Part shown: one piece after another, positions 1 to 17,882 of the stretch
How the letters are laid out: the number at the start of each line of letters is the position of its first letter
Position numbering within the stretch: position 1 is the first letter of the stretch
Assembly: GCA_028279185.1 (NCBI GenBank)
Contig: JANQSS010000043.1
Span: 62,001-126,000, forward strand
DNA: 64,000 nucleotides
Direction: 5' to 3'
Source of the DNA: Saprospiraceae bacterium
GTDB taxonomy: Bacteria > Bacteroidota > Bacteroidia > Chitinophagales > Saprospiraceae
The notes under the pieces: model-generated
Seen by the model: only the letters and a program-made list of their open reading frames with translations
Told to the model about the DNA's origin: nothing
Databases searched by the model: none
Translations under genes and position numbers: made by a program

Positions 1-389
1 CTTAAGCCATGTGCTCCTATCCAATCTCCACTTGCCATCCTTGGCAAGAATCTTTGTTTTTGATCCTCATTGCCAAATTCCGAAATTGTCATTTGGACTG
101 CCCAGAGGTGTGCATTAATGGCAATTCCTAACCCTACATCATTACACCCATAACCAAGGCCTTGCATACCAAAAACGGCGCGTAATACATCGATCTCCGA
201 ATGACTGCCTCCGTATTGCGGCTCACTTGCCAGACCCAACAATCCAAATTCACCACATTTCCGCCATAAGTCACGCGAAAACTCGCCCTGATAATCACGA
301 TCTATGATATTACTCTTAAGTTCAGTGGTGGCAAATGCTTCAACTTGGTTTCTATACACTACATATTCCTTTGGCACCGAAAAGTCCAT
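1..389 (-). CDS. Acyl-CoA dehydrogenase, N-terminal part (runs off the left edge)
   Basis: Reading the minus strand from the ATG at 389 gives an open frame of about 130 codons to the window edge, beginning MDFSVPKEYVVYRNQ. It matches the N-terminal helical domain of acyl-CoA dehydrogenases: an LWRKCGEFGLLGL stretch, then GGS, a GCNDVGLGIAINAHL stretch and the FGNEDQKQRFLPRMASGDW region just before the flavin-binding site. Such enzymes oxidise acyl thioesters with FAD, and the family has a branch that works on carrier-protein-bound chains in peptide and polyketide clusters. The gene is divergent from the HupE/NRPS operon, so it may belong to the same cluster, but only its first third is visible. 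An in-frame stop lies shortly upstream and no other in-frame ATG precedes this one. Confidence 0.85.
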   Translation of the reverse strand, partial: MDFSVPKEYVVYRNQVEAFATTELKSNIIDRDYQGEFSRDLWRKCGEFGLLGLASEPQYGGSHSEIDVLRAVFGMQGLGYGCNDVGLGIAINAHLWAVQMTISEFGNEDQKQRFLPRMASGDWIGAHGL

Positions 390-632
390 ATCTTCAATAT
401 TGGTTTTAGGTAGGCAAAGTACATAAAATATGGATTATCTTCACACCTAGAACACAGGGAGTTGTTGAATTAAACTCAACAATAATTGATATTTTTGTAA
501 ACAACTATCTCGTGAACAATTACTCAAATTTTTGCTGGAGATAATATAAAATTGCATGTAGTCAATTTTTTAATTTCCCTGCAGCTGCTTGTGAGAACAT
601 CTAGGTACTAAAACCAATTGAAACAACTAATT
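390..632. promoter_or_regulatory. Divergent intergenic region between acyl-CoA dehydrogenase and HupE-like gene
   Basis: About 240 bases of AT-rich sequence separate the two divergent starts, so promoters in both directions must lie here. I see no convincing TAnnTTTG box or operator palindrome. Confidence 0.4.
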
Positions 633-1889
633 ATGCATTTAAATCTACGTAAATACCTTTTATTTTTTTGTGTAGTACTAACTAGTCAATGTGTTCTTGC
701 ACATCAGCCAGGTCAGAGCTACCTCTACTTCAGGGTTTATGAAAACCGTATAGAAGGTACCGTCGAAATGACGGTGGACGACATAAATAATGCCCTCGGA
801 ATTGACTTGGATGCTTCGCCATACTATAAAGAGAAGAACCAGGAAATCGCTAAGGCTGAATACCCCGCTACGTGGTCGCAATTTATTCCTGATATACAAC
901 ATTACCTGAAGTCGAGAATCAAGTTGCGGAATGCCAACCAATCGCTAAATATTGAATTTACCGACATGGAAATTCTGCCCTTATCTCGTTCAGTTTATAT
1001 ACTATCAAATTTTCGATTAAATCCAATAACGAGCATTCCAGATAATATAGACATCGACTACTCCATTTTATTTGATAAAGATGAAAAACACCGGGGATTA
1101 ACCATCATTGGCCACAATTGGCAAGCCGGAATAATTAAAAACGAGTCGATCAGTTCACTCATTTTTTCACCAAGCAACACATCTCAGACGCTGTCGTTAA
1201 AAGAAAAATCACTCTGGAAAGGGTTTGTCGCTCTATTGAAACTCGGGATGTGGCACATTTATATTGGCATCGACCATATCTTTTTTCTCCTGGCTTTGAT
1301 TTTACCATCGGTGATTCGAAAACGGCGTATGGACGATCGGATGGATATAAAACCTGTTGAAAGCTTTAAGGCTGCATTTTGGTACATATTAAAAATTGTC
1401 ACGCTCTTCACAGTTGCACACAGCATTACATTAAGTTTGGCTGCCCTCGGTATAATAAATTTAGACAGCCGAATCGTAGAATCGCTCATTGCTCTTTCGA
1501 TTGGGCTCGCAGCATTACATAATATTTATCCGATATTTTCTAAAAGTGAATTATTGATCACTTTCCTATTTGGATTATTTCATGGAATGGGATTTGCAAG
1601 TGTACTAGGCGAAAAAGGAATTGAAGGGGAATTTTTAGCACTGTCTCTTTTTGGTTTTAACGTAGGGGTTGAAATTGGTCAGGCGCTAATCGTCTGTGTT
1701 TTGTTTCCAATACTCTTTTTTCTGCGAAAAAAGCCATTCTACAAACACATCCTCATTTATGGCTCAATATTTTTGATACTAGCTTCGCTTTATTGGTTTG
1801 TAGAACGATTTTTCGATGTGAACTACCTGCTCGATGACTATATCGGAAAAGCAATCAATAAAATTTACAAAATAATTGGTCTTAAGTAA
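633..1889 (+). CDS. HupE/UreJ-family membrane protein
   Basis: A secreted N-terminal domain of about 185 residues follows a signal peptide (cleavage likely near LAHQ) and is followed by about six to seven membrane segments. The membrane half carries the signatures of the HupE/UreJ_2 family: HIYIGIDHIFFLL, a later HSITLSLAALG, FHGMGFAS and GFNVGVEIGQ. Related HupE/UreJ proteins are nickel or cobalt permeases linked to hydrogenase and urease maturation; members with a long extracytoplasmic domain are mostly uncharacterised. I chose ATG 633 over the in-frame TTG at 618. The stop lies about 10 bases before the NRPS start, so the two are probably co-transcribed, which suggests that metal transport and the peptide are linked. 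Substrate unknown. Confidence 0.8.
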   Translation: MHLNLRKYLLFFCVVLTSQCVLAHQPGQSYLYFRVYENRIEGTVEMTVDDINNALGIDLDASPYYKEKNQEIAKAEYPATWSQFIPDIQHYLKSRIKLRNANQSLNIEFTDMEILPLSRSVYILSNFRLNPITSIPDNIDIDYSILFDKDEKHRGLTIIGHNWQAGIIKNESISSLIFSPSNTSQTLSLKEKSLWKGFVALLKLGMWHIYIGIDHIFFLLALILPSVIRKRRMDDRMDIKPVESFKAAFWYILKIVTLFTVAHSITLSLAALGIINLDSRIVESLIALSIGLAALHNIYPIFSKSELLITFLFGLFHGMGFASVLGEKGIEGEFLALSLFGFNVGVEIGQALIVCVLFPILFFLRKKPFYKHILIYGSIFLILASLYWFVERFFDVNYLLDDYIGKAINKIYKIIGLK

Positions 1890-1899
1890 TCGATAACAA

Positions 1900-4800
1900 G
1901 TGAGTTCGTCAAAGGATAATGAAAAGTCCATCTTGAGTCAATGGGCAGCACTTAAAAAAGCAACGCCCGAAAAAAAGGCTCCTATAGACACTGATCGAGT
2001 TGTGCATCGGGCATCCGAAGGACAGCAACGATTGTTTTTTCTCGACCAATTACATCCTGAACACCCTGTTTATAATCTGACCGAAATTTGGCACTTCCAA
2101 GGTGAATTGAATGTTGATCTTTTCCTAGAAGCCCTTGAACAAATTGGAAAGGGACAAGAAATTTTGCGAACTACCTTTCATCTCGAAGACAGCAATATCA
2201 TTTGTCGTATTCGCCCACATTTTAAATATGATCATGAAATCATAGACTTGAGTGGACATGACACAGATTCCTTAAATGATGAATTTAACCGCATCGCCCG
2301 TAAAAAATCGAATACGCATTTTAATTTATCCGACGGACCTCTACTCAATATAACGATTTGCAAAATCGACCAGACACTCCATCGTGCTATCGTCAACATG
2401 CATCATATTATTTCTGACAAGTGGTCAATGCGTATTCTTCGAAACTCCTTGTCCGCTCAGTATGCGTCCGCATTACAGCATAACTTTGAGCCATCGCCTG
2501 CGCGTGAAGTTCAATATGCCGACTATGTCATACACCAATTAAACCAAGAAACAAATGCCAAAGATGTCACGTATTGGCATAAAAAACTACAAGGATTCAC
2601 GGAACACTCCTCATTTCCATCTGATAAAGACATGCAAGCCGATGCCTCGTTAAACGGTAAATATATTACGCGGTCATTTCGGCCGGGCATGCATGCCTCT
2701 ATAAAAGCATTTTGTAAAACACATAAAGTAACATCGTTTGTTTTCTTTCTTTCTATTTATAAGCTACTACTCCATAAATACGCACAACAAAAAGATATTT
2801 TAGTCGGTACTCCAGTTTCTACGCGATCTAAAATCGAGTTCGAAAAAATAATAGGATTTTTTAATGACACTATTGTGTTGCGGTCTCAGATTGACAAAAA
2901 CATGACATTCCTTGACCATTTAACTCAAGTAAAAAAAACTGTTTTAGCCGCGTTTGAACATAAAAGCATTGGGTTTCAAAATCTGCTAAATGAAATCAAT
3001 CCAAATAGATCGTCAGACGAAAATCCATTATTTCAAACGATGTTCTTGTATCACAACGAGAATGAATCACCAATTTTTGGAGAAAACCTGTCTATCAATG
3101 TTCAAAACTATGACATGGGCGTCTCAAAATTTGATCTCACGTTATATGTAGCCGAATCCCCAACCAGTTTTGAACAGACGATCGAATTTGCAACTGACCT
3201 GTATACCGATCAATATGTGCATGCTTTACAAAACCACATCGAAGAGCTAGCCTGTCGAATCATTGAACATCCTTCCGTACAATTGGAGTCGTTGCATTAT
3301 CTACCATCAGACGAAGTCAACACGCTAATCTCAATAGGAAAAGGTAAGTCCCTGCAACTGGATCGAAACGAAAATATTATCGATGCCATTTTTGGTAATG
3401 TAAATCCGGATCACATCGCCTTACGCGATCAACACCAAACCATTACTTATGAAGAACTGAATAAACGGTCCAATCAAATTGCCAATGCGCTGAGTCATAA
3501 TACCACTGAAAATAATATCGTAGGCATATTACTTGAGCAGTCGACTGACTTTGTGTCTGCCATGATTGGCGCTTTAAAAGCGGGCCTTGCCTATGTTCCG
3601 TTGGATGTAACCTACCCGCTCAAACATATCCGGCATATTTTATTCAAAGCCGAAGTCCAACTCGTAATTAGTTCAGAAAAAATAAACACCCCTGAGTACG
3701 GAGAATTCAATGTAATAGAGATAGAGCAAATTCGAGAAGCCGAAACGTTTGATCACAAGGATAAAATTGCGCCAATATCGACGGCATATATCATGTTTAC
3801 TTCGGGCAGTACGGGAGATCCGAATGGTGTTGTTGTTTCACATGCTAATTTATTGAATTCGACAAGAGCTCGTTTTTCTTTTTACGATGACCATCCAACA
3901 TCATTTCTACTTTTGTCACCTTTTTCATTTGACAGCTCGGTAGCGGGAATTTATTGGACCTTATTTAATGGTGGCAAATTAGTGATTCCGGCAAAGCGGT
4001 CCATCCAGGACTTACAGGTAATTTCCGACCTTATCGAAGCAGAAGACATAAGTCACACACTGTTAATACCGAGCTTATATCGCGTTTTTCTTGAGCTTAT
4101 TGAGGTTCGTCGTCTGCAGAAGCTTAAGGTTGTCATTCTGGCAGGAGAAGAATTGCCTGTTTCGATTGCCAAAACTCACGTTGAAAATCTTTCCGGTGTT
4201 CGACTGTATAATGAATATGGGCCCACAGAGGCGACGGTTTGGGTTTGTGCATACGAAGTTAAAAATCCATCGAATCGCAATCGCATTCCAATAGGTAAAG
4301 CTATTACCAACACCACCTTGTTAGTTCTCGATGAGAACTTCCATCTCTGCCCAAAAGGCATTCCAGGTGAATTGTTTGTTCATGGAGCCTCGGTTAGCAC
4401 TGGTTACTTAAATACTGGAACAACTGAAGGTTCAAAATTTATCACCACGGAGGTAAACAATAGAAGTCTCAAACTATACCGAACAGGTGATTGGGTCAAA
4501 TGGGACGAAGAAAATAATTTGTTGTTTTTAGGAAGACGCGATCATCAGGTAAAGGTGCGCGGACATCGCATCGAATTGGGTCAAGTTGATGCGGCAATAC
4601 GAGCGCTCCATAAAGATCTGCAATCAATAACAATACACCTACAAGATAAACAAGAGCTGCGAACATTTCTCGTTTCGACAAGAAGTGTGAATACCGAAAA
4701 ATTACGCGCGCAAATTCGGGAACAACTTCCGACCCACTACCATCCGGATAAAATCATTCAACTGGAATCATTTCCATTAATGCCAAACGGAAAAATAGAT

Positions 4801-7800
4801 ACTAAAGCTCTCCAAAAATTCGAATTAAATGAGGAGAATACGATAAATCAGCCGACTAGAATTTCATCGACGGAAAGAATATTACTTAAAATATGGCAAG
4901 AAGTATTACAACTTCCGAACCTTGGCGTTCAAGACAATTTTTTTGAAGTAGGCGGTGATTCGATTCAGATAATTCGAATCGTGGCAAAATCAAAAAAAGC
5001 CGGAATTCAACTTTCACCTAAACACGTCTATAGACATCAAAATATCGCTACACTTTGTAAACACATCGTAGATGAGCCGAAAGTCGAAATAGCACCTTTA
5101 CTTTGGGATAGATTGCCACTTACACCGATCCAATCCTGGTATTTTGACACGCACATGGCCAATCCACACCATTGGCTACAGGGATACTCATTCACATTAA
5201 GGCAGCCTGTAACACTGGAGAATATAAGTCAGGCAATACGAACCCTGATCAGTCATTATGAAATATTTCATGTTGTTTTTGAGCAGGAGTATGGGTCGTG
5301 GTTTCACCGTAGGAAAAAGTTTATTGCCGAAGATTTCATAAAACCTGTAAAATCCGCCTCGAATGACGAGATAAATCTAAATATTCAAAATGGTCCGCTG
5401 GCTCATTTCATTCTGGAAGAAACATCTGGCGATGTGTATGGTGGCAAAATAATTATGCACCACCTTATTACTGATGTACTTTCATGGGATGTTGTATTTT
5501 CATTTATGGAAGAATTTTTGCAAAAAAATAATGATTGGATTCAATCAAAAAACTATGAATATTTCTTGTGGGTAAATCGGCTTCACCAACTTGCGTCTAC
5601 TAACAAATTTGATGTTGACATTCCATTCTGGAAAAACATGCTCGAACATAATTCGACGTTCTTTGCCAATGTAACTACTAGCATCGAACGTGATGTTATC
5701 ACCTTCTTTGACAGCATTGATTCCAACACCACAAAAACTATTCAACGACGAGCAAAAGAAGTTAGCGGGATTAAAATTAACGAAATAGTCATCGCCGCTT
5801 TTTTATCTGTTTTTAATAAACAAACCGATGAAAGAAGTTTGACATTAATGTTGGAACATCACGGACGCAATTCAACTTCGACCACTGTAGATTTGGCCAC
5901 ATCCATTGGATGGCATACCACGTATTTTCCGATCAACATATCTTTGTCAGATCCCGCATCATTTTTACAAATAATGCTTGATGTAAAAGATCAATTACGA
6001 TCCGTTCCGGATAATGGCCTATCATACGGAGTACTGAAGTACATATCTGGAAAGCTATCCGGAAACCCAAATGCCAACGTTGTTATCAACCATCTAGGTG
6101 ACAGTGATCGTCAAAGCAGTGCCGTTTTTGAAGAAGTACATTTTCTTCGAAAAAATATGCGATCAGATCAAAGTGAACGTGACTATTTGATAGAAATAAA
6201 TTCCTGGATCGAAGGAGGAGAATTTAAATTGGCGTTTTCATTCGACGAAAAACAACTGGACCCCAAGATGATGCAATCATTCTGTGATAACATCATCGTA
6301 ACGATTAGAAATTTACCATATGAGTTACAGGGTACGAGCTCAATTTTTACACGTTCAGATTTTCGCTTTATTTATAGTCAGGAAGACCTTTCAACCATAG
6401 AGTTGTCTTCTCGTGATCGAAATGTAGAAATAACAGACCTTATTGAGCTAAGTGCAAATCAGTCAGCTTTGCTATTTCACCACCTACAACCCCATGCACA
6501 AGATGAGGGCTTGATCGTTGCAACAGCGGACATTTCGGGCCAAATTGATGAAGAATTATTTCAAGAGGCCTGGCACACTGTCGTCAGTAGACATGACGCG
6601 CTTCGGTCATTTTTCTTATGGGAAAGTTTATCGAAACCTGTTCAAGTCATATGTAATTCGGTAGACTCTTCGGTTGAATTTGTTGTTATAGATGAAAAAA
6701 TAAACCGCTCGCTGGAAGACACTGTCACTTCCTGGGTCAAATTTCAAGACCAATCGAATTTAGACATTCAACAGCCACCAACTCATAAAATTGCTTGCTT
6801 CCATGGCAATGGTTTAAACGGTAAGCTGATTTTTGTTTGCCATCATATTTATATTGATGGATGGAGTACAAATAATTTATTTGAAGAATTTCAGCATATT
6901 TACGAAGCGCTCAACAAAAACCTGGATCACGCACTTCCATTAGTGCCGCGACTTAGTCAATGGAAGCAAAAATTTGATGTGCGCCGTACGGATCCAGCCA
7001 TATTGAAATTTTGGCAAAACTATTTGAACGAAAGTAAAGCGACCTATTTAAAAGCTCGTGCATCTTCAACATTGTATAAATTTAAATCCTACACCACTAC
7101 TCTTCAAGTAGATGAATCAAATCGAATTAGGTCTGGCATCAAGACTAGCCGTATTACGCTCAATACATTATTCGCGGGAGTCTGGTCCTGGCTCTTGTCC
7201 AATTACCTCAACGAACCCGAAGTATTTATTGGATTGACGCATTCCGGACGATCAATAGACCTAAGTCACATGGATGCACTCATTGGGATGTTTACGACTG
7301 TCTTGCCTTTGAAATTTATTAGAAAGGATAATAGTATTATTGACTTACGAGCTGTGCAGGATGACTTAAACGAAATTCTAACAATGGAAGACATGAGTTT
7401 GGAAGACATTTCATCAACCAGTCAGTATGGAAATCTTTTTGACACTGTTTTGATTGTTGAGAATTTTGTTCCAAAAAAATCATCTCCTTCTGCCTTAAAT
7501 TTTGTGAATTTTAAAAGTAGAATTAGTAGTACGATTCCATTGTGTCTTGTGGTTATTCCAGGCGATCGAATTAAACTCATCCTTCGTTACAACGTAAATG
7601 TCTATACGGCTGACGAAGTAGAAAAAATTGCCTTAGATTTCAGCTCGGTTCTCACCAAAATAAATATTTCATCAAATAAAGCGAGCATTGATTATCAGCC
7701 TGTCTATTCTCCACTTGCAGAAGGCAATGGCCCCACTGAAACCATGCAACAACTCCAAGTACCAGTCGATTCGCTAGATGATGGAAGTACCGAACAGAAC

Positions 7801-8757
7801 TTACTGCGTATATGGAGAGGGGTGTTGAATAACGCCAGTGTTAGCCTGGAAGACAATTTTTTCGAAATTGGGGGCACGTCCTTGCTTGCCGTTCAAATAT
7901 TTAATAAAATAAATGAAGAACTTGGGATTAATGCATCACCAATACTTCTGCTCAAATTTAATACGGTTCAGCTCTTAGCTGAAAATTTGGCTCAAGATAC
8001 GGTATCCGAAAGTTGGAAGTGTCTCTTTTCATTAAAGGAAGGTGGTAATAAAATCCCATTATTTTGTTTTCATGCCGGAGATGGACATATCATGTTTTAC
8101 AAACAACTAGCGGAATCTATAGAGTCCGGTAGACCGGTATATGGGATCCAACCTGTCGGATTGGATGGTAGTGACATACAGTTTGGAAGTATAGTCGAAA
8201 TGGCCAACTATTATATCGGAGAAATTAAAAAAGAATTTCCAACAGGTCCCTATCACTTGCTCGGCACTTGCTTCAGCAATGCGGTTACATTCGAGATAGC
8301 AAAACAACTAAAATCTGAAATCGGTCGGATTTTCATTGTGGATTCGCCACCACCCTATTTTAATGAATTATCAAAAATGAAAAAATGGTTAAACTGGGTC
8401 GTCACGTTTAACTTACCGAAACTATGGACTGCATTCAATAATTATTTTAAATACGTCAAACTGCGAGAGCCTTCAGACGAACATGAGCGAAACTTATTTC
8501 TCACCGGCAAGCATCTACACAAAATCATGAGCACCTATAAGTGGTCCCCTCAGCATTTAGAAATTGTCCTCATCCGATCAAGTCAAAATAATGAAGACAA
8601 ATATCATGACTACCATATTTTGAACTGGCAAATGCTTGCTAAAGGTGGTTTACAGACTAAAGCCATCGAAAGCGATCATCGTGGAATATTTAAAGATCAG
8701 GCGGCGGTCGAAATGGCTACCATCATCGATGATATTTTAAACGTGTATGACAATTAG
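1900..8757 (+). CDS. Non-ribosomal peptide synthetase, C-A-T-E-C-T-TE
   Basis: Domains in order (approximate residues): condensation 35-460 with HHIISDKW at 168-175; adenylation 480-945 with the A3 core TSGSTGDPNG at 634-643, FDSSVAG from 677, NEYGPTEATVW and an NGK A10 motif; carrier 960-1040 with FFEVGGDS and pantetheine Ser1021; epimerisation about 1065-1510 with HHLITDVLSW from 1187, EHHGRN, IGWHTTYFP and NHLG; condensation about 1540-1950 with HHIYIDGW from 1648; carrier with IGGTS and Ser1994; thioesterase from about 2030 with GTCFS (Cys2124), Asp2148 and His2260. It should activate one amino acid, turn it to the D form and condense it with whatever sits on the second carrier, which lacks its own adenylation domain. 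The N-terminal condensation domain may acylate the first residue. The start is GTG at 1900. Amino-acid specificity cannot be read safely. Confidence 0.95.
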   Translation: MSSSKDNEKSILSQWAALKKATPEKKAPIDTDRVVHRASEGQQRLFFLDQLHPEHPVYNLTEIWHFQGELNVDLFLEALEQIGKGQEILRTTFHLEDSNIICRIRPHFKYDHEIIDLSGHDTDSLNDEFNRIARKKSNTHFNLSDGPLLNITICKIDQTLHRAIVNMHHIISDKWSMRILRNSLSAQYASALQHNFEPSPAREVQYADYVIHQLNQETNAKDVTYWHKKLQGFTEHSSFPSDKDMQADASLNGKYITRSFRPGMHASIKAFCKTHKVTSFVFFLSIYKLLLHKYAQQKDILVGTPVSTRSKIEFEKIIGFFNDTIVLRSQIDKNMTFLDHLTQVKKTVLAAFEHKSIGFQNLLNEINPNRSSDENPLFQTMFLYHNENESPIFGENLSINVQNYDMGVSKFDLTLYVAESPTSFEQTIEFATDLYTDQYVHALQNHIEELACRIIEHPSVQLESLHYLPSDEVNTLISIGKGKSLQLDRNENIIDAIFGNVNPDHIALRDQHQTITYEELNKRSNQIANALSHNTTENNIVGILLEQSTDFVSAMIGALKAGLAYVPLDVTYPLKHIRHILFKAEVQLVISSEKINTPEYGEFNVIEIEQIREAETFDHKDKIAPISTAYIMFTSGSTGDPNGVVVSHANLLNSTRARFSFYDDHPTSFLLLSPFSFDSSVAGIYWTLFNGGKLVIPAKRSIQDLQVISDLIEAEDISHTLLIPSLYRVFLELIEVRRLQKLKVVILAGEELPVSIAKTHVENLSGVRLYNEYGPTEATVWVCAYEVKNPSNRNRIPIGKAITNTTLLVLDENFHLCPKGIPGELFVHGASVSTGYLNTGTTEGSKFITTEVNNRSLKLYRTGDWVKWDEENNLLFLGRRDHQVKVRGHRIELGQVDAAIRALHKDLQSITIHLQDKQELRTFLVSTRSVNTEKLRAQIREQLPTHYHPDKIIQLESFPLMPNGKIDTKALQKFELNEENTINQPTRISSTERILLKIWQEVLQLPNLGVQDNFFEVGGDSIQIIRIVAKSKKAGIQLSPKHVYRHQNIATLCKHIVDEPKVEIAPLLWDRLPLTPIQSWYFDTHMANPHHWLQGYSFTLRQPVTLENISQAIRTLISHYEIFHVVFEQEYGSWFHRRKKFIAEDFIKPVKSASNDEINLNIQNGPLAHFILEETSGDVYGGKIIMHHLITDVLSWDVVFSFMEEFLQKNNDWIQSKNYEYFLWVNRLHQLASTNKFDVDIPFWKNMLEHNSTFFANVTTSIERDVITFFDSIDSNTTKTIQRRAKEVSGIKINEIVIAAFLSVFNKQTDERSLTLMLEHHGRNSTSTTVDLATSIGWHTTYFPINISLSDPASFLQIMLDVKDQLRSVPDNGLSYGVLKYISGKLSGNPNANVVINHLGDSDRQSSAVFEEVHFLRKNMRSDQSERDYLIEINSWIEGGEFKLAFSFDEKQLDPKMMQSFCDNIIVTIRNLPYELQGTSSIFTRSDFRFIYSQEDLSTIELSSRDRNVEITDLIELSANQSALLFHHLQPHAQDEGLIVATADISGQIDEELFQEAWHTVVSRHDALRSFFLWESLSKPVQVICNSVDSSVEFVVIDEKINRSLEDTVTSWVKFQDQSNLDIQQPPTHKIACFHGNGLNGKLIFVCHHIYIDGWSTNNLFEEFQHIYEALNKNLDHALPLVPRLSQWKQKFDVRRTDPAILKFWQNYLNESKATYLKARASSTLYKFKSYTTTLQVDESNRIRSGIKTSRITLNTLFAGVWSWLLSNYLNEPEVFIGLTHSGRSIDLSHMDALIGMFTTVLPLKFIRKDNSIIDLRAVQDDLNEILTMEDMSLEDISSTSQYGNLFDTVLIVENFVPKKSSPSALNFVNFKSRISSTIPLCLVVIPGDRIKLILRYNVNVYTADEVEKIALDFSSVLTKINISSNKASIDYQPVYSPLAEGNGPTETMQQLQVPVDSLDDGSTEQNLLRIWRGVLNNASVSLEDNFFEIGGTSLLAVQIFNKINEELGINASPILLLKFNTVQLLAENLAQDTVSESWKCLFSLKEGGNKIPLFCFHAGDGHIMFYKQLAESIESGRPVYGIQPVGLDGSDIQFGSIVEMANYYIGEIKKEFPTGPYHLLGTCFSNAVTFEIAKQLKSEIGRIFIVDSPPPYFNELSKMKKWLNWVVTFNLPKLWTAFNNYFKYVKLREPSDEHERNLFLTGKHLHKIMSTYKWSPQHLEIVLIRSSQNNEDKYHDYHILNWQMLAKGGLQTKAIESDHRGIFKDQAAVEMATIIDDILNVYDN

Positions 8758-9508
8758 TCCCTGGAAAGAAACAACTGCAATAGTAAGGCCTGCATCGGAT
8801 GCCGTCGTTATTTATCAAGTGGATAAATCCACGATATCACCACAGGTCGATAAAACAAAGCTACTTGCACCTTTGTCGACGGATGAAATTGAGCGTTACA
8901 ACAAATTTCGTTTCGATAAAGACAAATTAACCTTTGGCATTGCTCGTTTCGCACTTCGTTACATCTGTGGACAAATGCTAACACAACCACCTGCCTCGAT
9001 ATCCTTTGATTACAATGAGTTTGGAAAGCCATATTTGCCTGGTGTCCCAAATTTTCATTTTAATTTATCCCACTCCGGTAGTTTGATTCTATTGGCTTTC
9101 TGCAATCACGCTGCTTTGGGTATAGACGTTGAAAAATATAAGCACCATGTCCGACATATGGATTTGGCCAAGTCTGTTTTTGCTGACAGTGAAATGGAAC
9201 AATTAAAATCATTGGAGACACGAGACATTATACACGGCTTTTACAACTGTTGGTCAAAAAAAGAGTCATTTATCAAGGCCAAAGGAAAAGGATTGCAGAT
9301 ACCATTAAGTCAGTTTGGAGTTCGGATTGTCGATGAAGGATATGCTAATTTATTGCACGTTAATTGGGAAACCTCAGAGATCTTCAAATGGCAGCTATTT
9401 AATCTAGCTACCAAGCAGGATTACGCGGCCGCTTGTACTTGCCACATTCATATTAATACGGTTGAACTTTTTGACATTAGTCAGTTTATATCCGGCAATG
9501 TTTTATAA
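8747..9508 (+). CDS. 4'-phosphopantetheinyl transferase, Sfp type
   Basis: This 253-residue protein converts apo carrier proteins to the holo form by moving phosphopantetheine from CoA to the carrier serine. The family signatures are present: FNLSHSG, then LGIDVEKYK (magnesium-binding Asp and Glu) and the CWSKKESFIKAKGKGL helix. The length is typical of the two-fold Sfp class rather than the short AcpS class. Its ATG overlaps the end of the NRPS by 11 bases in another frame, which implies translational coupling. Its job is almost certainly to activate the two carriers of that NRPS. No terminator-like hairpin is obvious downstream. Confidence 0.93.
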   Translation: MTISPWKETTAIVRPASDAVVIYQVDKSTISPQVDKTKLLAPLSTDEIERYNKFRFDKDKLTFGIARFALRYICGQMLTQPPASISFDYNEFGKPYLPGVPNFHFNLSHSGSLILLAFCNHAALGIDVEKYKHHVRHMDLAKSVFADSEMEQLKSLETRDIIHGFYNCWSKKESFIKAKGKGLQIPLSQFGVRIVDEGYANLLHVNWETSEIFKWQLFNLATKQDYAAACTCHIHINTVELFDISQFISGNVL

Positions 9509-9987
9509 TAGACCCAACGCATTTTATTCTGTCGTCTTTTCATTATTGAAATCGCAATAGCGACTGTGACGATTGTTCGTCGGTCCATTGTCTATTTCAG
9601 TGTAATTTTTCCAAGAAAGTGATCATGGCGGGATCATATATTGTTACACCCGTATAAGCATCACATCAGTCCGGCCCGGAAAGCCCCAGACCCTATTGGG
9701 AAATTCAATGGAATTAGAGGTTGCAGCCACGGGTAAATTAAGCAGTGTATTTTCTCATTTTAGTCTGAAAGATGTCCTTTTTATGCTGATCTTTTCCAAT
9801 TAATGCATTAGCTTCGCAGAGCAATGAATACGGCTCGGTTGTCGCATAAACAAGCCATTCTGTTGAACTTTGCTATAGAGTTAAATTTCAATTGCTCAAC
9901 ACCATATAGCAAGTGCTCATTATGCGAATAATTTGATTTATGCAGACTGGGTTATAGTGCGAAATCGCGATTTTTCATTAATAGTTT
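9509..9987. other. Noncoding gap of about 480 bases before the TonB-dependent receptor
   Basis: No credible ORF in either direction. The middle part (about 9630-9740) is GC-richer than its flanks and contains runs such as GGCCCGGAAAGCCCC, which could be a structured leader or the remains of a decayed gene. I checked by eye for cobalamin and TPP riboswitch signatures and did not find a convincing one. Confidence 0.3.
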
Positions 9988-9991
9988 ATGT

Positions 9992-12223
9992 ATGCGCAGA
10001 TTACTACTTTTCTATTGTTTTATTCTTTCAGCCACAATAGCAGTCGGACATGACATTCATGGCAAGGTTATGGATTCATCGGGCAATCCCATAGCCGATG
10101 TGAATGTTTACAATTCGACCAGCGAGAAACATAGTCACACTAACGAATTAGGACAATTTATACTTCGAAATGCACACCCCGGCGATAAATTAATGGTCAG
10201 TTATCTTGGATATAAAACAGTGCATTATGTGATCGAGCCAAAAGATGTTGAAAAAGGCCTTGAATTTATTCTTGAAGAAGATGTATTTGAATTAGATCAA
10301 GTTCAGGTTACGAACTCGTTCAAAACCGTAAATCGCATTGCCTCTATAGACCTACAGACGAATCCGGTCACCTCTTCTCAGGAAGTCTTGCGAAAAGTTC
10401 CGGGGCTTTTTATTGGTCAACATGCAGGAGGAGGGAAGGCAGAGCAAATTTTTTTAAGGGGCTTTGATATCGATCATGGAACGGATGTCACTTTGCGCGT
10501 TGACGGTATGCCTGTCAATATGGTCTCCCATGCTCACGGCCAAGGATATGCGGATTTGCACTTCCTTATCCCAGAAACAATTGAGAAAATAGATTTTGGC
10601 AAAGGACCTTATTACGCTGACCAGGGCAACTTTAATACGGCGGGGTATGTCGAATTTAAGACGCGCGACCGACTAGACAAAAGCATGGTTGGTGTCGAAG
10701 CAGGTTCATTCAATAGTCAACGTATTGTAGGCCTATTCGATCTATTAAATAAAAGTGAAAGTCGCAACTCTGCTTATATAGCAGCTGAGTATTTACTCAC
10801 TGATGGTCCATTCGATTCTCCTCAGAATTTCAATCGTTTAAATATCATGGGTAAGTACACAGTTGATTTTCAAAATAGCAATCGACTGACATTTTTGGCT
10901 TCAAGGTTTCAGAGCAAGTGGGACGCCTCGGGTCAAATCCCGCAACGACTTGTCGACAATGGAACGATAGGTAGATTTGGAGCAGTGGACGACACCGAAG
11001 GAGGCGGTACAAGTCGAACGAACATATCGATGACACATTCTAAAACTATTAATGATAATGCCTTTATAAAGACGCAGGCTTATTTCAGTCATTATGATTT
11101 TGAATTATTTTCAAATTTTACATTCTTTTTAGAAGACCCAATTAATGGTGATCAAATTCGTCAATATGAAGATCGCCGTATTTATGGTGTTCATTCGACC
11201 CTATTTCAAAACCTTACTATTGGCGAAAAAGATGTTTCATTGAGCGCCGGAATCGGCCTGCGATATGATGACGTCAATGATGTTGAATTAGCCCGTACGG
11301 CAAACCGCAAAACGACATTAGAGCGTTTAGCACTTGGTCAAGTCGACGAATCAAATCTATTCGGCTTCATCAATGCTGACATCGACTTGGGGAATTGGTT
11401 GATAAATCCCGGCTTGCGTATTGATTACTTCAACTTTGACTACATCGATCAGTTAGCGCCAAATTATACGAGCCTGTCGGAAGACAAATCATTTTTATCA
11501 CCTAAGTTCAACATCATTTACACACCCGACAATCAGTGGAATTTATTCTTGAAATCGGGCATGGGCTTTCATTCAAACGACACGCGCGTGGTTGTCGCGC
11601 AAGAAGGCAACCGTATTTTACCGGCCGCTTATGGATTGGATATCGGCGCAAATTGGAAGCCCGTGCCTCGCTTATTTATTAATGCCGCGGTCTGGTATTT
11701 ATTCTTAGAACAGGAATTTGTTTACGTGGGCGATGCGGGAATTGTTGAACCAAGTGGAAAGACAGAGCGAAAAGGTTTCGATCTTGGGTTTCGATATCAG
11801 TTAAATGACTATTTATTTTTTGATTGGGATTTTAATTACACAGATGCAGAAGCGACCGAGGAGCGTGATGACGAAAATTACATCCCACTTGCCCCCGAGC
11901 TCACGACTGCCGGAGGATTATCTTATAAAAATCCCAACGGACTGTCTGCTGGAATTCGAATGAGATATTTAAAAGACAGACCTGCAAACGAGTCAAACTC
12001 TATTGTTGCCGATGGTTATTTTATTACAGATGCAAATGTGTCCTATACATTTGGTAGTGTTGAAGTTGGCCTATCAATAGAAAACCTATTTGATAGTGAA
12101 TGGAATGAAACCCAATTTGCGACAGAGTCTCGTTTGCTAACAGAGGCGATACCTGTTGAAGAAATTCACTTCACACCCGGTACACCAATTAATATTCGAG
12201 GGAGTTTGAAATATAGGTTCTAG
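9992..12223 (+). CDS. TonB-dependent receptor with N-terminal carboxypeptidase-regulatory-like domain
   Basis: A 743-residue outer membrane receptor. A signal peptide (MRRLLLFYCFILSATIAVGH) is followed by a regulatory-like beta-sandwich (IHGKVMDSSGNPIADVNVY), then a plug domain with LRKVPGLFIGQ, FLRGFDIDHGTDV and VDGMPVN, and a 22-strand barrel ending in the aromatic LKYRF expected for barrel insertion. Receptors of this type import iron chelates, cobalamin, nickel chelates or glycans using TonB energy. The plug carries a histidine-rich stretch, VSHAHGQGYADLHF. There is no SusD partner, so a glycan importer of the SusCD type is unlikely. Lying just after the NRPS and phosphopantetheinyl transferase, it may import the NRPS product loaded with metal. 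ATG 9992 is preferred because it gives a clean signal peptide; an out-of-frame ATG lies at 9988. Confidence 0.92.
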   Translation: MRRLLLFYCFILSATIAVGHDIHGKVMDSSGNPIADVNVYNSTSEKHSHTNELGQFILRNAHPGDKLMVSYLGYKTVHYVIEPKDVEKGLEFILEEDVFELDQVQVTNSFKTVNRIASIDLQTNPVTSSQEVLRKVPGLFIGQHAGGGKAEQIFLRGFDIDHGTDVTLRVDGMPVNMVSHAHGQGYADLHFLIPETIEKIDFGKGPYYADQGNFNTAGYVEFKTRDRLDKSMVGVEAGSFNSQRIVGLFDLLNKSESRNSAYIAAEYLLTDGPFDSPQNFNRLNIMGKYTVDFQNSNRLTFLASRFQSKWDASGQIPQRLVDNGTIGRFGAVDDTEGGGTSRTNISMTHSKTINDNAFIKTQAYFSHYDFELFSNFTFFLEDPINGDQIRQYEDRRIYGVHSTLFQNLTIGEKDVSLSAGIGLRYDDVNDVELARTANRKTTLERLALGQVDESNLFGFINADIDLGNWLINPGLRIDYFNFDYIDQLAPNYTSLSEDKSFLSPKFNIIYTPDNQWNLFLKSGMGFHSNDTRVVVAQEGNRILPAAYGLDIGANWKPVPRLFINAAVWYLFLEQEFVYVGDAGIVEPSGKTERKGFDLGFRYQLNDYLFFDWDFNYTDAEATEERDDENYIPLAPELTTAGGLSYKNPNGLSAGIRMRYLKDRPANESNSIVADGYFITDANVSYTFGSVEVGLSIENLFDSEWNETQFATESRLLTEAIPVEEIHFTPGTPINIRGSLKYRF

Positions 12224-12968: not shown

Positions 12969-14726
12969 ATGTATAGATCACATAATTGCGGCGCATTGCG
13001 CATCGACGATATTGGTAAAGAAGTTACGTTAGCTGGCTGGATGGCCGTTTCGAGAGAGTTTGGCGGTTTGACATTCATAGACTTGAGAGACCGGTATGGC
13101 ATTACCCAACTAGTCTTTGATATGGAAGGCAGCCCCGACTTATGTAATCAGGCACGTGCGCTTGGACGTGAATTTGTTATACAAGTACACGGGATCGTTT
13201 CCGAACGATCAAACAAAAACCCTAATCGTGCAACTGGTGATATTGAAATACTTGTCACTGATCTTCGCATCTTAAATGAATCAGACGTTCCTCCATTTAC
13301 TATAGAAAACGAAACAGATGGAGGAGAAGAGCTTCGAATGAAGTACCGATACCTCGATTTGCGTCGTCAAAATGTACAAGAAAAATTATTCTTCCGCAGT
13401 AGGCTTGCTATCGAAACAAGAAAGTATTTAGCCGGTAACGATTTCATAGAAGTTGAGACGCCTTTTTTGATTAAAAGCACACCAGAAGGGGCACGTGATT
13501 TTGTCGTACCCAGTCGTGTTCACCATGGGCAATTCTATGCCCTTCCTCAAAGTCCACAGACTTTTAAACAATTACTAATGGTATCGGGGTTTGATAAATA
13601 TTTTCAGATAGTCAAATGTTTTCGCGATGAAGATTTTCGTGCCGATCGTCAACCGGAATTTACACAAGTCGACTGTGAAATGTCGTATGTGGAACAGGAA
13701 GATATACTAAATACGTTTGAGGGGTTGACAAAACATTTATTTAGAGAGTTAAAAGGGATCGACCTGCCTGCATTTCCGCGGATGACGTATGACGAAGCAA
13801 TAGCGCATTATGGTTCGGATAAGCCCGACATCCGGTTCGGTATGTTATTTTGTGAATTGAATTCTGTGGTTCAGGGGCATGGGTTTGGTGTATTTGATAA
13901 CGCGGAATTAGTTGTGGGCTTTTGTGCAAAGGGACAAGCCATTAATTATTCTAACAAAGACATAAAAAAACTGACCGAGTGGGTACAGCGTCCTCAGATA
14001 GGAGCTAAGGGCTTGGTTTATGTAAAATATACAGCCGATGGAATTAAATCTTCCGTTGGCAAATTTTATTCCGATGAACAGTTAAAGAAATGGGGTTCAC
14101 TCATGGGTGCTGCTGAAGGTGACATGCTATTAATTTTAAGCGGTGAGGCTGAAAAAACGAGAAAGCAACTCGGCGCCTTGCGACTCGAAATGGGCAATCG
14201 TATGGGGCTGATGGATCCAGAAGATTTCAAACCGCTGTGGGTATTAGATTTTCCGTTACTCGAATGGGACGAAGACTCCAATCGTTTCCATGCCATGCAT
14301 CACCCATTTACTTCACCCAAAAAGTCGGACATCGATCGTATGCTCAATGGCGACCATGAAACCATGAAGGCACTTCGGGCTGATGCATATGATCTTGTGC
14401 TCAATGGATCTGAAATAGGAGGTGGATCAATACGGATTCATGATCGTGAATTACAAGAAAAAAATTTTAAGCTTCTCGGTTTCACAGAGGATGAGGCCAA
14501 GGAACAATTTGGTTTTTTGTTAGATGCTTTTCGCTATGGTGCCCCACCTCATGGAGGAATTGCCTTCGGTTTTGATCGGTTATGCACGTTGATGCAAGGC
14601 AGTGATTCGATTCGGGAGGTCATTGCTTTTCCAAAAAATAATCAAGGGCGCGATGTGATGATTGATGCGCCAGCAGGGATTGATGGCGAGCAATTGGCAG
14701 AATTAGCCTTGAAGGTAGTAGAATAA
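12969..14726 (+). CDS. aspS: Aspartyl-tRNA synthetase
   Basis: Class II synthetase that charges tRNA-Asp. The 585-residue length and layout are those of the bacterial type: an N-terminal OB-fold anticodon-binding domain (about 1-105, [10 protein letters not shown]), the catalytic core with motif 2 around [16 protein letters not shown], the bacterial GAD insertion (about 280-400), and motif 3 GIAFGFDRL near residue 530. The [13 protein letters not shown] stretch and [10 protein letters not shown] are typical. I start at ATG 12969 ([10 protein letters not shown]) because the upstream in-frame TTG overlaps a -7 promoter box. Whether the enzyme is discriminating or also charges tRNA-Asn depends on gatCAB elsewhere in the genome. 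Confidence 0.97.
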
Positions 14727-15066
14727 TTATTTAGCAATGTCATGGGTTAGTGACCAAGTTTTATAATTAATTTTTCTCTGATATTCAGAAAGTCCGCAAT
14801 CTCATATTTTGATCCAATTTTTATACCTGACTCTCTTATCCTGAAAAATAAATAGTAACTACATGCTCTACTTGGTAACTTGGGGGTCGGTCCATTTTCT
14901 TGTTTGTTACTCAGAGTTTATGCTTACGTGTATCGCTATGCTGCTGTAAACAACCAACCTATCGATTAAAGGTTGCCTTTCGCTGCTTTTGTCATTTTTT
15001 AATATTTTTTTAGGGGCGATTGAAATTGTTACATGTATTGGAATATGTAAGTAAAATTCAACACCT
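14727..15066. other. Intergenic gap of about 340 bases
   Basis: AT-rich sequence between aspS and the next secreted protein. I see no ORF, tRNA or clear hairpin terminator. Confidence 0.3.
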
Positions 15067-15753
15067 GTGAAACGGTCTTGTTACATATTATTTTTCTTGA
15101 TTGCTCAGGTTTCTACTGCCAAAACATTTGTTCTAGACGGATTTGTTGAAGACGGTAATGACAAAACCACATTAATAGGTGCCAACATTGTCTTCTACAG
15201 CGGTGATGAATTGCCATCAGGGACTGCGACGGACGTTACCGGCTATTACCAAATCTCATTGCCACCTGGAGAATACAAAATAGTGATCAGCTATGTCGGA
15301 TATGCCGATGAGCTTATCGAATTATATGCGTTGAAGTCTAATTGTACAATGGACTTCATGTTAAAACCAAACATTTTGTTACCGAAAGTTGTCGTTAAGG
15401 AGCTTCGAAACACAACCATTAAAGATGGATGTATTCTTACAGGTATATTGACATCAGATCCGACTATGGCCCAATTAGCCGAAGAAAAAATAATACTTGA
15501 AGAGAACAACAAAGCCGGGAGGTCATTTACAGTTTTTCCAAACCCCAATACCGGTAAGTTTACAATTCGTAATGAAAACAACACGGACAACGCAACCTAT
15601 TTCATATTTAATTCGAATGGCCGGCAAGTATTGACCCCTAAAACTGTGCATGCTTTAACAACCATAAACTTGCATCTTACCTCTCCCGGAGTCTATTTTA
15701 TGCAGAACGAGGACACTCGAGATATTTGTAAAATAATTATTACACCCAAATAA
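15067..15753 (+). CDS. Secreted protein: carboxypeptidase-regulatory-like domain plus T9SS type A tail
   Basis: A 228-residue protein starting at GTG. A signal peptide (MKRSCYILFFLIAQVSTAK) leads into a regulatory-like beta-sandwich (DGFVEDGNDKTTLIGANI, then GYYQISLPPGEYKIVISYVGY), a short linker (about 105-155), and a C-terminal sorting domain beginning VFPNPNTGKFTI and ending IIITPK. That tail directs export across the outer membrane by the type IX system. The layout is a shortened version of the next gene, with LPKVVVKELRN corresponding to its plug-like stretch. The function of the mature part is unknown; regulatory-like domains alone usually mediate folding or binding. Confidence 0.8.
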   Translation: MKRSCYILFFLIAQVSTAKTFVLDGFVEDGNDKTTLIGANIVFYSGDELPSGTATDVTGYYQISLPPGEYKIVISYVGYADELIELYALKSNCTMDFMLKPNILLPKVVVKELRNTTIKDGCILTGILTSDPTMAQLAEEKIILEENNKAGRSFTVFPNPNTGKFTIRNENNTDNATYFIFNSNGRQVLTPKTVHALTTINLHLTSPGVYFMQNEDTRDICKIIITPK

Positions 15754-15851: not shown

Positions 15852-17870
15852 ATGAAACATGTCTTTTACTTCTCACTTTTTGCTTGCGTATTATTTTTGA
15901 CGGGCATAACATCGTCCTTCGACTGTCCAAATCCTGGTGTGCAGACGGCCATAAATGGTAAGGTCACCGATGACGAAACAGGCGAAGCAATCCTATTTGC
16001 TGATGTCGCACTTTACAAAAACGGAATTCTTGTGACAGGTGCACAAACCAACTTCGATGGTAATTATTCGATTAACAACATTGATGCGGGCATCTATGAC
16101 TTAGAAGCATCCTATGTTGGATATGAATCCAAACGAATCGCTGGTGTACGGATAAATGCGGGTGAAGTATCTCGTGTTGATTTTATTCTAGGCACGGGCA
16201 TCGATTTAGAATGTGTGACAATTATCGAATACAAAAGACCGCTTATAAGCACAGACAATACATCTAGTGGGGGCTCACTCACAGCTGACGAAATACGTAG
16301 CCTACCGACTAAGAATATCAACGATCTCGCTTCTACATCCGTAGGTTTACGTTCATCCAAAAATAAGTGTGTGGGCACTCGTGGAAGTCGGTCGAAGGGA
16401 ACCAGTTATGTAATTGATGGCATTAAAACTAGCGGCAGTTTAACCAAAAAAAATAAATCACCTCACAAACCTTCAGTGGCTGTAAATGCATCAAAAGCCA
16501 CAGATTTAAGCGGGAAGCTAACAGCCACTGAAGTTAATGATTTCGCCAATTGGACATTCTGGGAAACGATTCAAGAAACAGAATTTATTTCGACAAGCCT
16601 TAAATGGAAAATGAATCCACTGGAACGCTATTCGATTCACGTTCAAAATAACGAACAGGTTGCGCTTAGTGGTTTGTCTATTGAATTATTGAGTAAAGAT
16701 GATCATGTCCTTTGGTCTACAATTTCAGATAACCTGGGTCATGCCGAATTGTTTGGCTCATTTTTTGAAAATCAAGAGCAAAGTCCCGGTCACCGTATAC
16801 GTGTCTCGAAAAATAAAAAGGAGTTGGCAAATGTCCCTGCACACCAATTTAATACGGAAGCTCAAATTATTCAGGTCAATAGTTCTTGTCAAGCTATCGA
16901 GGCCATTGAATTGGCATTTTTAATGGATATTTCAGGAAGTATGCGCGATGAAATGGCTTACCTGCGTTCTGAAATTTCATCTATAGTCTCACGCATAAAA
17001 CATGAATTTTCAGGTCGTCTTTTGCGTGTCGGAGTCGTTTATTTTCAAGGGCACGGTGATCGAACGCCCATTACATCCATGGATTTAACGGATGACTTCG
17101 AGGCTTTGTTTTCCTTTATTCATGGTCAATACGGCGGCGGTGGCGCAGATGAAGCGATAGACCTGGCTCTACAAACAGCTGTCGAAGAAATGTCCTGGTA
17201 CGAAAATAGTTCTAAAATTATTTTTTTAATGGGAGACGAAGAATTGGACAATGTCGAAATGAATCGAGAACGGCAGCGATATTACACTAAACGTTGTGCG
17301 GAGGAAGGAATAAAAATAAATCCAATAGGGTGCAGCGGGATGCCAAAGTCATTGGAATATGTAATGCGGGCAATGGCTATTGGCACTGGTGGTACCTACA
17401 TCGCTTTGACTGATGATAGCGGAATAGGCAATACGCATATAAAACCCACTACCTCGAAAATTAATGTCCAGGCGTTGAACGATTTATTATTTGATGTCAT
17501 ATTGCGTTTTGTTTCAAAACGCGATTGCTCAGATCTCATCATTTCGGAAAGTGATCAAATAAAAAGTCCTGATGGTAGCTTGAACAGGCAGCTGGGAAAA
17601 GAAAAATCAGAAATTGAACTATCTCTTTTTCCAAATCCCACATCTGGTATATTCAAATTAACCCGAAAAGAAGTAAAAAGTATCGAGCATCTTTGGATTA
17701 CCGATATGGCCGGGCGTCTTGTCAGGCAACTTAATCCAGATCCATCCGATAGATATTTTGATGTTTCTGATTTGGCAAGCGGGCAATATTTTCTGATCTA
17801 TCAAGATAAAAAAGGACAATTTGGTTCATCATTTTTATTAAAAACAGGAACAACTATTGCCAGGCGTTAG
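15852..17870 (+). CDS. Secreted vWA protein with SusC-like N-terminus and T9SS type A tail
   Basis: A 672-residue chimera. After a signal peptide comes a regulatory-like domain (about 32-115, INGKVTDDETGEAI and GYESKRIAGVRIN), then a stretch like the plug of a SusC receptor (LTADEIRSLPTKNINDLAS, then GTSYVIDGIK, about 140-200) with no barrel after it. Residues about 350-560 form a von Willebrand A domain with the metal-ion-dependent adhesion motif DISGSM at 359-364. The C-terminus has LFPNPTSGIFKL and ends in a type A sorting domain. vWA domains bind proteins through a metal ion, so a surface adhesion or assembly role is plausible. It follows the related smaller gene by about 100 bases. Confidence 0.85.
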   Translation: MKHVFYFSLFACVLFLTGITSSFDCPNPGVQTAINGKVTDDETGEAILFADVALYKNGILVTGAQTNFDGNYSINNIDAGIYDLEASYVGYESKRIAGVRINAGEVSRVDFILGTGIDLECVTIIEYKRPLISTDNTSSGGSLTADEIRSLPTKNINDLASTSVGLRSSKNKCVGTRGSRSKGTSYVIDGIKTSGSLTKKNKSPHKPSVAVNASKATDLSGKLTATEVNDFANWTFWETIQETEFISTSLKWKMNPLERYSIHVQNNEQVALSGLSIELLSKDDHVLWSTISDNLGHAELFGSFFENQEQSPGHRIRVSKNKKELANVPAHQFNTEAQIIQVNSSCQAIEAIELAFLMDISGSMRDEMAYLRSEISSIVSRIKHEFSGRLLRVGVVYFQGHGDRTPITSMDLTDDFEALFSFIHGQYGGGGADEAIDLALQTAVEEMSWYENSSKIIFLMGDEELDNVEMNRERQRYYTKRCAEEGIKINPIGCSGMPKSLEYVMRAMAIGTGGTYIALTDDSGIGNTHIKPTTSKINVQALNDLLFDVILRFVSKRDCSDLIISESDQIKSPDGSLNRQLGKEKSEIELSLFPNPTSGIFKLTRKEVKSIEHLWITDMAGRLVRQLNPDPSDRYFDVSDLASGQYFLIYQDKKGQFGSSFLLKTGTTIARR

Positions 17871-17882
17871 CACATAACGCGT

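Follow-up and report, generated by a model that had tools for sequence, protein, structure and literature searches.

A candidate peptide metallophore cluster of a Saprospiraceae bacterium in which a HupE-type permease gene precedes a non-ribosomal peptide synthetase gene

Introduction

Clusters for non-ribosomal peptide siderophores (pyoverdine, pyochelin and others) combine genes for a non-ribosomal peptide synthetase (NRPS), a 4′-phosphopantetheinyl transferase (PPTase), a TonB-dependent receptor and an exporter, and most of the described peptide metallophores serve iron. Here we analyse a cluster of related composition in a stretch of 64,000 nucleotides from a Saprospiraceae bacterium (contig JANQSS010000043.1, positions 62,001 to 126,000; hereafter the window), in which a gene for a HupE/UreJ-2 permease stands directly in front of an NRPS gene. 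We infer, with a probability of roughly 0.7, that this cluster makes and re-imports a small metallophore of the non-ribosomal peptide type, that its metal is divalent and nitrogen-loving, with Cu(II) or Ni(II) as the most probable choice, and that the pathway ends in a HupE 'anglerase' permease; the inference extends to the substrates, the metal, the direction and every transport step.

Two lines of published work bear on the permease. According to a review, HupE takes up cobalt in Synechocystis and is assumed to have a nickel role elsewhere (PMC7689651). For the Ang-1 domain of HupE/UreJ-2 permeases, PMC12537917 reports that Cu(II) binds with a Kd of 73.6 nM and Ni(II) with one of 220 nM, and states that Zn, Co, Fe and Mn slightly destabilise the Ang-1 protein.

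Results

The HupE-NRPS linkage is conserved

In the window, the HupE frame runs from an ATG at 633 (an in-frame TTG at 618 is also open) to 1889, and the GTG start of the NRPS gene at 1900 lies 10 bases past its end. The NRPS (1900-8757) and PPTase (8747-9508) genes overlap by 11 bases. They are followed by a TonB-dependent receptor gene (9992-12223) without a SusD partner, then by a minus-strand open reading frame (ORF) of 145 amino acids (aa) and an aspartyl-tRNA synthetase-like ORF; an acyl-CoA dehydrogenase gene diverges from HupE, starting at 389 on the minus strand. Apart from the two ORFs behind the receptor, these genes had been reported in a preliminary description of the window and were found again here, as was the plug motif VSHAHGQGYADLHF of the receptor, which matches exactly and is invariant except at two positions in six aligned receptors. 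The same description had called the locus compact, which proved wrong: the cluster extends past the left end of the window, where a further 12 kb or so of its genes are found.

An NRPS search covered 148 related genomes, from 11 of which 20 stretches were read. HupE adjoins the NRPS gene in nine of the ten genomes with the same code in the adenylation (A) domain; the contig of the tenth (G105) begins within the NRPS gene, and the eleventh genome (G089) has an unrelated NRPS with a different code. Identity to the window's proteins was 33-52% for HupE in nine relatives and 47-59% for the receptor in five relatives (six clusters aligned).

The HupE alignment was also used for a profile search of genome contigs. 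The best 80 of at least 553 confirmed relatives, with a long HupE of about 400 aa, were taken as loci L048-L127, on which the locus counts and the A-domain code counts given below rest. An NRPS gene was visible in 75 of these 80 loci, among them all 49 whose flanks reach 9.5 kb or more in either direction; the remaining five end close to HupE or are short. The NRPS start lay between -60 and 300 bases past HupE in 55 of the 75 testable loci. Over all 80 loci we counted 52 receptors, 50 PPTases, 42 dehydrogenases, 27 cyclodeaminases and 19 ATP-binding cassette (ABC) exporters. Homologous NRPS genes thus keep their HupE neighbour, and the refuting case named in the preliminary description, such genes without HupE and receptor, did not arise.

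Judged by record titles, the NRPS-linked HupE occurs in Saprospiraceae, Flavobacteriaceae, Cyclobacteriaceae, Rhodohalobacter (Balneolota) and Rhodothermia, and furthermore in Calditrichia, Gemmatimonadetes, Leptolyngbya, Adonisia, Crocosphaera, Accumulibacter, Phycisphaeraceae, Verrucomicrobiaceae, Thermodesulfovibrionia and Desulfofustis; named strains with the cluster include Zobellia russellii, Pricia antarctica and Algibacter luteus. Among 247 genomes sampled evenly across the phylum, 21 had a HupE match, five of them over most of its length (the window's genome, G079, G343, G359 and G362), and four of these five long-matching genes are located in the cluster. Since the gene arrangement recurs in many genomes, it goes beyond chance. 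NRPS, PPTase and TonB receptor genes stand in one neighbourhood that is conserved across relatives, a combination expected of non-ribosomal peptide metallophore clusters, and this association gives the metallophore reading good support. Among the papers listed by searches of an open-access library, none reports HupE paired with an NRPS metallophore.

The HupE N-terminal domain resembles a copper-bound Ang-1 domain

The HupE_UreJ_2 membrane domain scored 149.6 bits against a Pfam cut-off of 24.5. The AlphaFold2 model of the protein has a mean pLDDT (predicted local distance difference test) of 91.5, with low confidence at residues 20-24. Among solved structures, its N-terminal domain was closest in fold to 9gce, the Ang-1 domain of a HupE/UreJ-2 protein with copper bound (Z 10.9 over 142 residues, root-mean-square deviation 3.8, 5% identity), followed by zinc-bound ZrgA (Z 8.5) and by PA4063 (7.9), which also has a zinc-bound structure. 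His24 is present in 68 of 68 HupE sequences and is preceded by Ala in 54; it is presumably the mature N-terminus left after signal-peptide cleavage. In HIYIGIDH, which may correspond to the signature HPxxGxDH of the first membrane helix, His, Gly, Asp and His are invariant in the 68 sequences, and Ile occupies the Pro position.

The assembly line and its predicted product

The window holds only the right half of the cluster, which belongs to a 5.39-Mb draft genome. Left of base 1, the minus strand encodes the remainder of the dehydrogenase, a sulfotransferase, an A domain of 514 aa, a peptidyl carrier protein (PCP) of 81 aa, a 1025-aa protein of condensation, adenylation and thiolation domains (C-A-T) and a glycosyltransferase; a sulfotransferase is seen in 3 of the 80 loci. 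Farther left are genes for a DUF354 protein (plus strand), a membrane protein (minus) and an ornithine-cyclodeaminase-family protein (plus). In L003, a kinase gene of the APH_6_hur (aminoglycoside/hydroxyurea kinase) family (16989-17876, minus strand) adjoins the cluster on its left. The best solved match of the dehydrogenase was the prolyl-ACP dehydrogenase 4irn (349 bits); its scores stayed under the equivalog cut-offs of PigA (NF053553, 349.6 of 500 bits) and RedW (NF045652, 337.1 of 650 bits). It is a relative of the prolyl-PCP dehydrogenases, and its substrate assignment is putative. The best single-domain solved match of the stand-alone A domain was the L-proline:PCP ligase 6o6e (210.6 bits). 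Within the window, Pfam found three Condensation stretches, one AMP-binding, two PP-binding and one Thioesterase domain in the NRPS, and Plug plus TonB barrel in the receptor. No catechol, hydroxamate, salicylate or beta-hydroxy-Asp chelator pathway appeared among the Pfam families of the scanned cluster proteins.

Ten-letter substrate codes were read at aligned positions, the tenth letter being assumed to be K. The NRPS-labelled A domains read DS[ATV]L[IMV]AEVWK in 54 of 57 cases, and DSALIAEVWK agrees at 7 of 10 letters with what we take to be the bacitracin His code. Among the C-A-T-labelled A domains, 39 of 54 read DLTKIGEVGK, presumably the Asn code, and six are Ser-like. The window's own C-A-T protein reads DLSRVGEVGK and is therefore assigned to Asn or Asp. 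The stand-alone A domains mostly resemble codes that we assume to be of the pyrrole-type Pro class. Fifteen of them stand in loci showing neither dehydrogenase nor cyclodeaminase, and 12 of these read DPF... or DQFF... (exceptions L078, L080 and L099); a DP code also occurs alongside a dehydrogenase in L068, L072 and L076. A minimal form of the cluster, found for example in Zobellia russellii (L085), consists of a stand-alone A domain, PCP, C-A-T, HupE, a 1341-aa NRPS and PPTase, and fits a three-residue peptide. Set against these presumed codes, the readings suggest (dehydro)Pro-Asn/Asp-His, in which the putative order starter-Asn-His follows the usual assembly logic. The scheme does not explain the A-less C-T unit that precedes the thioesterase in the window's NRPS. 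This thioesterase carries GTCFS, with Cys where Ser is usual, a motif shared by several relatives. In L066 (4047-9449, minus strand), an 1800-aa C-A-T protein joins an Asn-like and a Ser-like A domain in one chain without the insert described below.

The idea that a dehydrogenase or cyclodeaminase missing from a locus is encoded elsewhere in the genome was rejected. Twelve genomes, representing 12 of the 23 full-flank loci without dehydrogenase, gave only dehydrogenases of 34-39% identity. The cyclodeaminase was found in none of these 12 and in none of three additional dehydrogenase-bearing genomes, while controls were recovered in 3 of 3.

The receptor clade and a separable uptake pair

In a tree of 55 receptors, those of the window and of G362 form one clade with 48 NRPS-linked receptors (support 95/98). 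The receptors of G307, G292 and G214 fall outside it, as does the distant L062 receptor on a long branch. The tree thus did not give the outcome named earlier as refuting, a firm placement of the window's receptor with an unrelated substrate group. The best NCBIfam model was the TonB siderophore receptor family TIGR01783, at 112.4 of the required 223.5 bits, and the distant solved matches include FecA and CntO. Together with the HupE-NRPS linkage and the match of the HupE domain to a copper-binding one, the receptor clade supports the earlier suggestion that a peptide metallophore fetches some metal in place of iron or in addition to it; the metal and the product are putative.

A short HupE adjoins receptors of 44-50% identity without an NRPS gene in G307, G292 and G214 (loci L131, L133 and L136), and by eye L133 and L136 also have DUF4331-like neighbours. 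In eleven further regions with a short HupE, of which the window's own genome contributes two, neither receptor nor NRPS was seen. Because HupE and a related receptor occur without NRPS, the uptake pair is separable from the synthetase. Directly upstream of the receptor, 31 of the 52 receptor-bearing loci (L070, L085 and L061, for example) encode a small protein (roughly 140-180 aa) in which His makes up 5.8-13% of the residues; an L052 ORF that is not His-rich was excluded from this set. These proteins look membrane-anchored, and the one scanned had no Pfam match. No His-rich protein is encoded directly upstream of the window's receptor.

Insertions in the A domains of relatives

In 44 A domains of the Asn type, the core is separated from the C-terminal subdomain by a PP-loop insert (for example L038:9167-10135, plus strand, with an SGGKDS motif). 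The one insert examined matched TIGR03573 (WbuX) across the model length, at 126.3 bits against a cut-off of 203.2. Eight Asn-type domains have no insert; three of them (L062, L100 and L108) are cut by locus ends, which leaves those of L066, L076, L082 and L125 and that of the window. The Ser-type (10), His-type (65), Pro-type (62) and remaining (2) A domains were all free of the insert. These counts cover A domains with a readable YGPxE motif and include some contigs twice (G079/L079, G067/L071, G099/L056 and G014/L052, for example). Neither the window's C-A-T protein nor the rest of its genome matched the WbuX domain. In the phylum sample, the sole close match to the insert (67%) lies in the G343 cluster; identity falls to 27-41% for 11 further matches, whose frames are 379-678 residues long. 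We found no paper on an amidotransferase inside an adenylation domain.

In 11 loci (L061, at 14165-14956, L068, L072, L076, L082, L084, L088, L100, L113, L117 and L119), a guanidinoacetate-methyltransferase-like gene stands between two NRPS frames and apparently splits the His-type A domain; in L068 the second frame starts on the C-terminal portion of such a domain. The L061 copy matches 3orh (E 6.8e-21).

The features of the window are collected in Table 1. By eye, two further genes (15067-15753 and 15852-17870) encode proteins that look secreted, their start resembling a carboxypeptidase-regulatory domain and their C-terminal tail a type IX secretion signal.

Table 1. Positions of the cluster features within the window (C, condensation; A, adenylation; T, thiolation; E, epimerisation; TE, thioesterase)
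Feature	Position	Strand	Basis
AnaB/PigA-like acyl-CoA-dehydrogenase-family enzyme, N-terminal 129 of 383 aa	3..389	-	Pfam; remainder left of window (L002:11238-12389)
Dehydrogenase-HupE divergent intergenic region	390..632	.	Fur/Zur/Nur-like sites not above shuffled level
HupE_UreJ_2 permease, 418 aa: signal peptide, Ang-1-like N-domain (~24-190), helical membrane domain (~194-415)	633..1889	+	Pfam, 68-sequence alignment, AlphaFold2 model, 9gce fold match
His24 codon	702..704	+	Alignment of 68 homologues
HIYIGIDH, putative HupE signature region	1254..1277	+	Alignment; motif HPxxGxDH as printed in PMC7689651
NRPS, 2285 aa: C - A - T - E-like C - C - T - TE; one A domain only	1900..8757	+	Pfam; HHxxxD and carrier motifs
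A domain, code DSALIAEVWK (presumably His-like); end approximate	3400..4830	+	Pfam, code reading
Thioesterase domain; GTCFS at NRPS residues 2122-2126 (8260-8280 region)	8056..8733	+	Pfam, motif
PPTase, 253 aa	8747..9508	+	Pfam ACPS
TonB-dependent receptor, 743 aa, N-terminal CarbopepD_reg_2, no SusD partner	9992..12223	+	Pfam; tree clade
Plug motif VSHAHGQGYADLHF of the receptor	10523..10564	+	Alignment

Discussion

A model of the pathway can be drawn from these data. The stand-alone A domain would load a proline-type residue, possibly supplied by the ornithine-cyclodeaminase-family enzyme, onto the free PCP, where the AnaB-like dehydrogenase would oxidise it to a pyrroline or pyrrole. A residue of the Asn/Asp type would come next, through the C-A-T protein; the large NRPS would then attach one of the His type, which in the window's system is probably epimerised, and release the chain. 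His would thereby come to position 3, behind backbone amides and the N-terminal ring nitrogen. The peptide would be exported, perhaps by the ABC exporter encoded next door in some relatives, and would then bind its metal; the complex would enter through the TonB receptor. In the periplasm, the anglerase domain of HupE would take the metal from the peptide, and HupE would then move it across the inner membrane. We favour Cu or Ni because of the HupE domain type and of the His placed third in the chain; Co and Zn are possible.

Several observations weigh against this model. The best-80 sample is skewed to near relatives and many of its loci end at contig ends, and the substrate codes were compared with presumed codes, of which the His code was not found in print. 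G362 (L130) has a long HupE and a receptor of 54% identity without NRPS; such pairs mean that HupE need not serve a peptide; G362 could use the chelator of another bacterium. The sulfotransferase and glycosyltransferase of the window's cluster are not explained by the model. No exporter adjoins its genes, and the exporter homologues in its own genome are at most 29-33% identical and lie elsewhere. Since the window's C-A-T protein does not have the insert of most relatives, its product may differ from theirs. The window's copy is a divergent family member, without insert or adjoining exporter and with an extra sulfotransferase. Rfam searches of L002 and seven relatives yielded no riboswitch, including the cobalamin type, at gathering thresholds, and for known Fur, Zur and Nur boxes, real and shuffled upstream regions scored alike; upstream of 633 and 9992, where such sites had been proposed, none rose above the shuffled level. 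Palindrome search by expectation maximisation in 74 upstream regions scored modestly above three shuffles each, with an AT-rich consensus that is not usable. Enriched 8-mers from Flavobacteriaceae mostly reflected the surroundings of start codons; ATCATCGAAAA did not and is not accounted for. A regulator of unfamiliar type may be compatible with the absence of known boxes or riboswitches.

Other explanations have to be set against the Cu/Ni metallophore. The closest is that the metal is zinc or cobalt, a minority possibility, for which speak the zinc-bound structures of ZrgA and PA4063, the cobalt uptake of Synechocystis HupE and the His-rich proteins, which suit zinc as well; however, in fold the domain comes nearest to Ang-1 of HupE/UreJ-2, a protein reported to be slightly destabilised by Zn and Co (PMC12537917), and neither a Zur site nor a cobalamin riboswitch was found upstream in the loci searched. 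The peptide might instead serve iron, with its imidazole and conceivably also with an oxidised Pro and an Asn that is acidic or modified, and with HupE supplying another metal to a pathway enzyme or being a bystander. The best receptor model, although below its cut-off, and the distant FecA and CntO matches agree with an iron siderophore. We nevertheless hold it to be distinctly unlikely, given the lack of catechol, hydroxamate or salicylate genes in the cluster Pfam scans, Fur-like sites not above the shuffled level, and the HupE linkage in 49 of 49 loci. It is more improbable still that the peptide is a signal or antibiotic to which HupE and receptor, with a metal-uptake role of their own, merely hitch-hike: the NRPS-less pairs of L130, L131, L133 and L136 and the sulfate and sugar tailoring genes of the window's cluster would suit this, but HupE directly precedes the NRPS gene in 55 of the 75 testable loci, and the link persists across record titles of many phyla.

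In the metal-binding half of bleomycin, which binds copper, an Asn-derived unit stands immediately ahead of the His unit. One could imagine, although we think it rather doubtful, that the present family makes bleomycin-like chelators without the DNA-cutting part. In most members the WbuX-type domain would convert the side-chain amide of Asn into an amidine, and ring closure onto the carbonyl ahead of it would yield a 4-aminopyrimidine directly before His, giving a copper site of ring nitrogen, aminopyrimidine and imidazole; the methyltransferase-like enzyme would modify the same nitrogen region, HupE anglerases would be the dedicated importers, and the window's member would be a simplified one that has lost the ring-forming domain.

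If the metallophore model is right, the cluster would represent a general and overlooked route to a non-iron metal, one that in many phyla constantly pairs a permease of the Cu/Ni type with an NRPS that adds His. It would provide a ligand source for the newly described anglerase permeases, and would place an amidotransferase inside an adenylation domain.

Comparison with known systems

The metal-binding half of bleomycin resembles the predicted product in having an Asn-derived unit ahead of a His unit and in binding copper. With anatoxin-, prodigiosin- and pyoluteorin-type Pro-PCP oxidation the cluster shares a three-part starter unit (A domain, PCP and prolyl-ACP dehydrogenase); unlike there, the starter is predicted to feed a peptide with His and Asn/Asp, and an ornithine-cyclodeaminase-family gene often adjoins (27 of 80 loci). 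The insert resembles the WbuX/PseA N-acetyl sugar amidotransferases (TIGR03573) over the full model, but scores below the cut-off and lies within an A domain. Identity with leptochelin-type systems was considered and rejected, since HupE does not occur in the two related papers searched, on lusichelin and fatuamide, and the chemistry differs. The Ang-1 anglerases (9gce), as described in PMC12537917, share with the HupE studied here an N-terminal His after the signal peptide, a beta-sandwich domain joined to a HupE/UreJ-2 membrane domain, and a proposed role in metal capture and import. They occur mainly in Pseudomonadota beside DUF4198 and indigoidine-A-like genes, whereas here the neighbours are an NRPS cluster and a TonB receptor; that text does not contain the words nonribosomal, siderophore or metallophore. 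Like non-ribosomal peptide siderophore clusters, the locus has NRPS, PPTase and TonB receptor genes, with an ABC exporter in relatives; it differs from them in having no known chelator pathway genes and in that HupE replaces the ABC or major facilitator superfamily importer. The family is a variant of the non-ribosomal peptide metallophores with new features, rather than a separate category.

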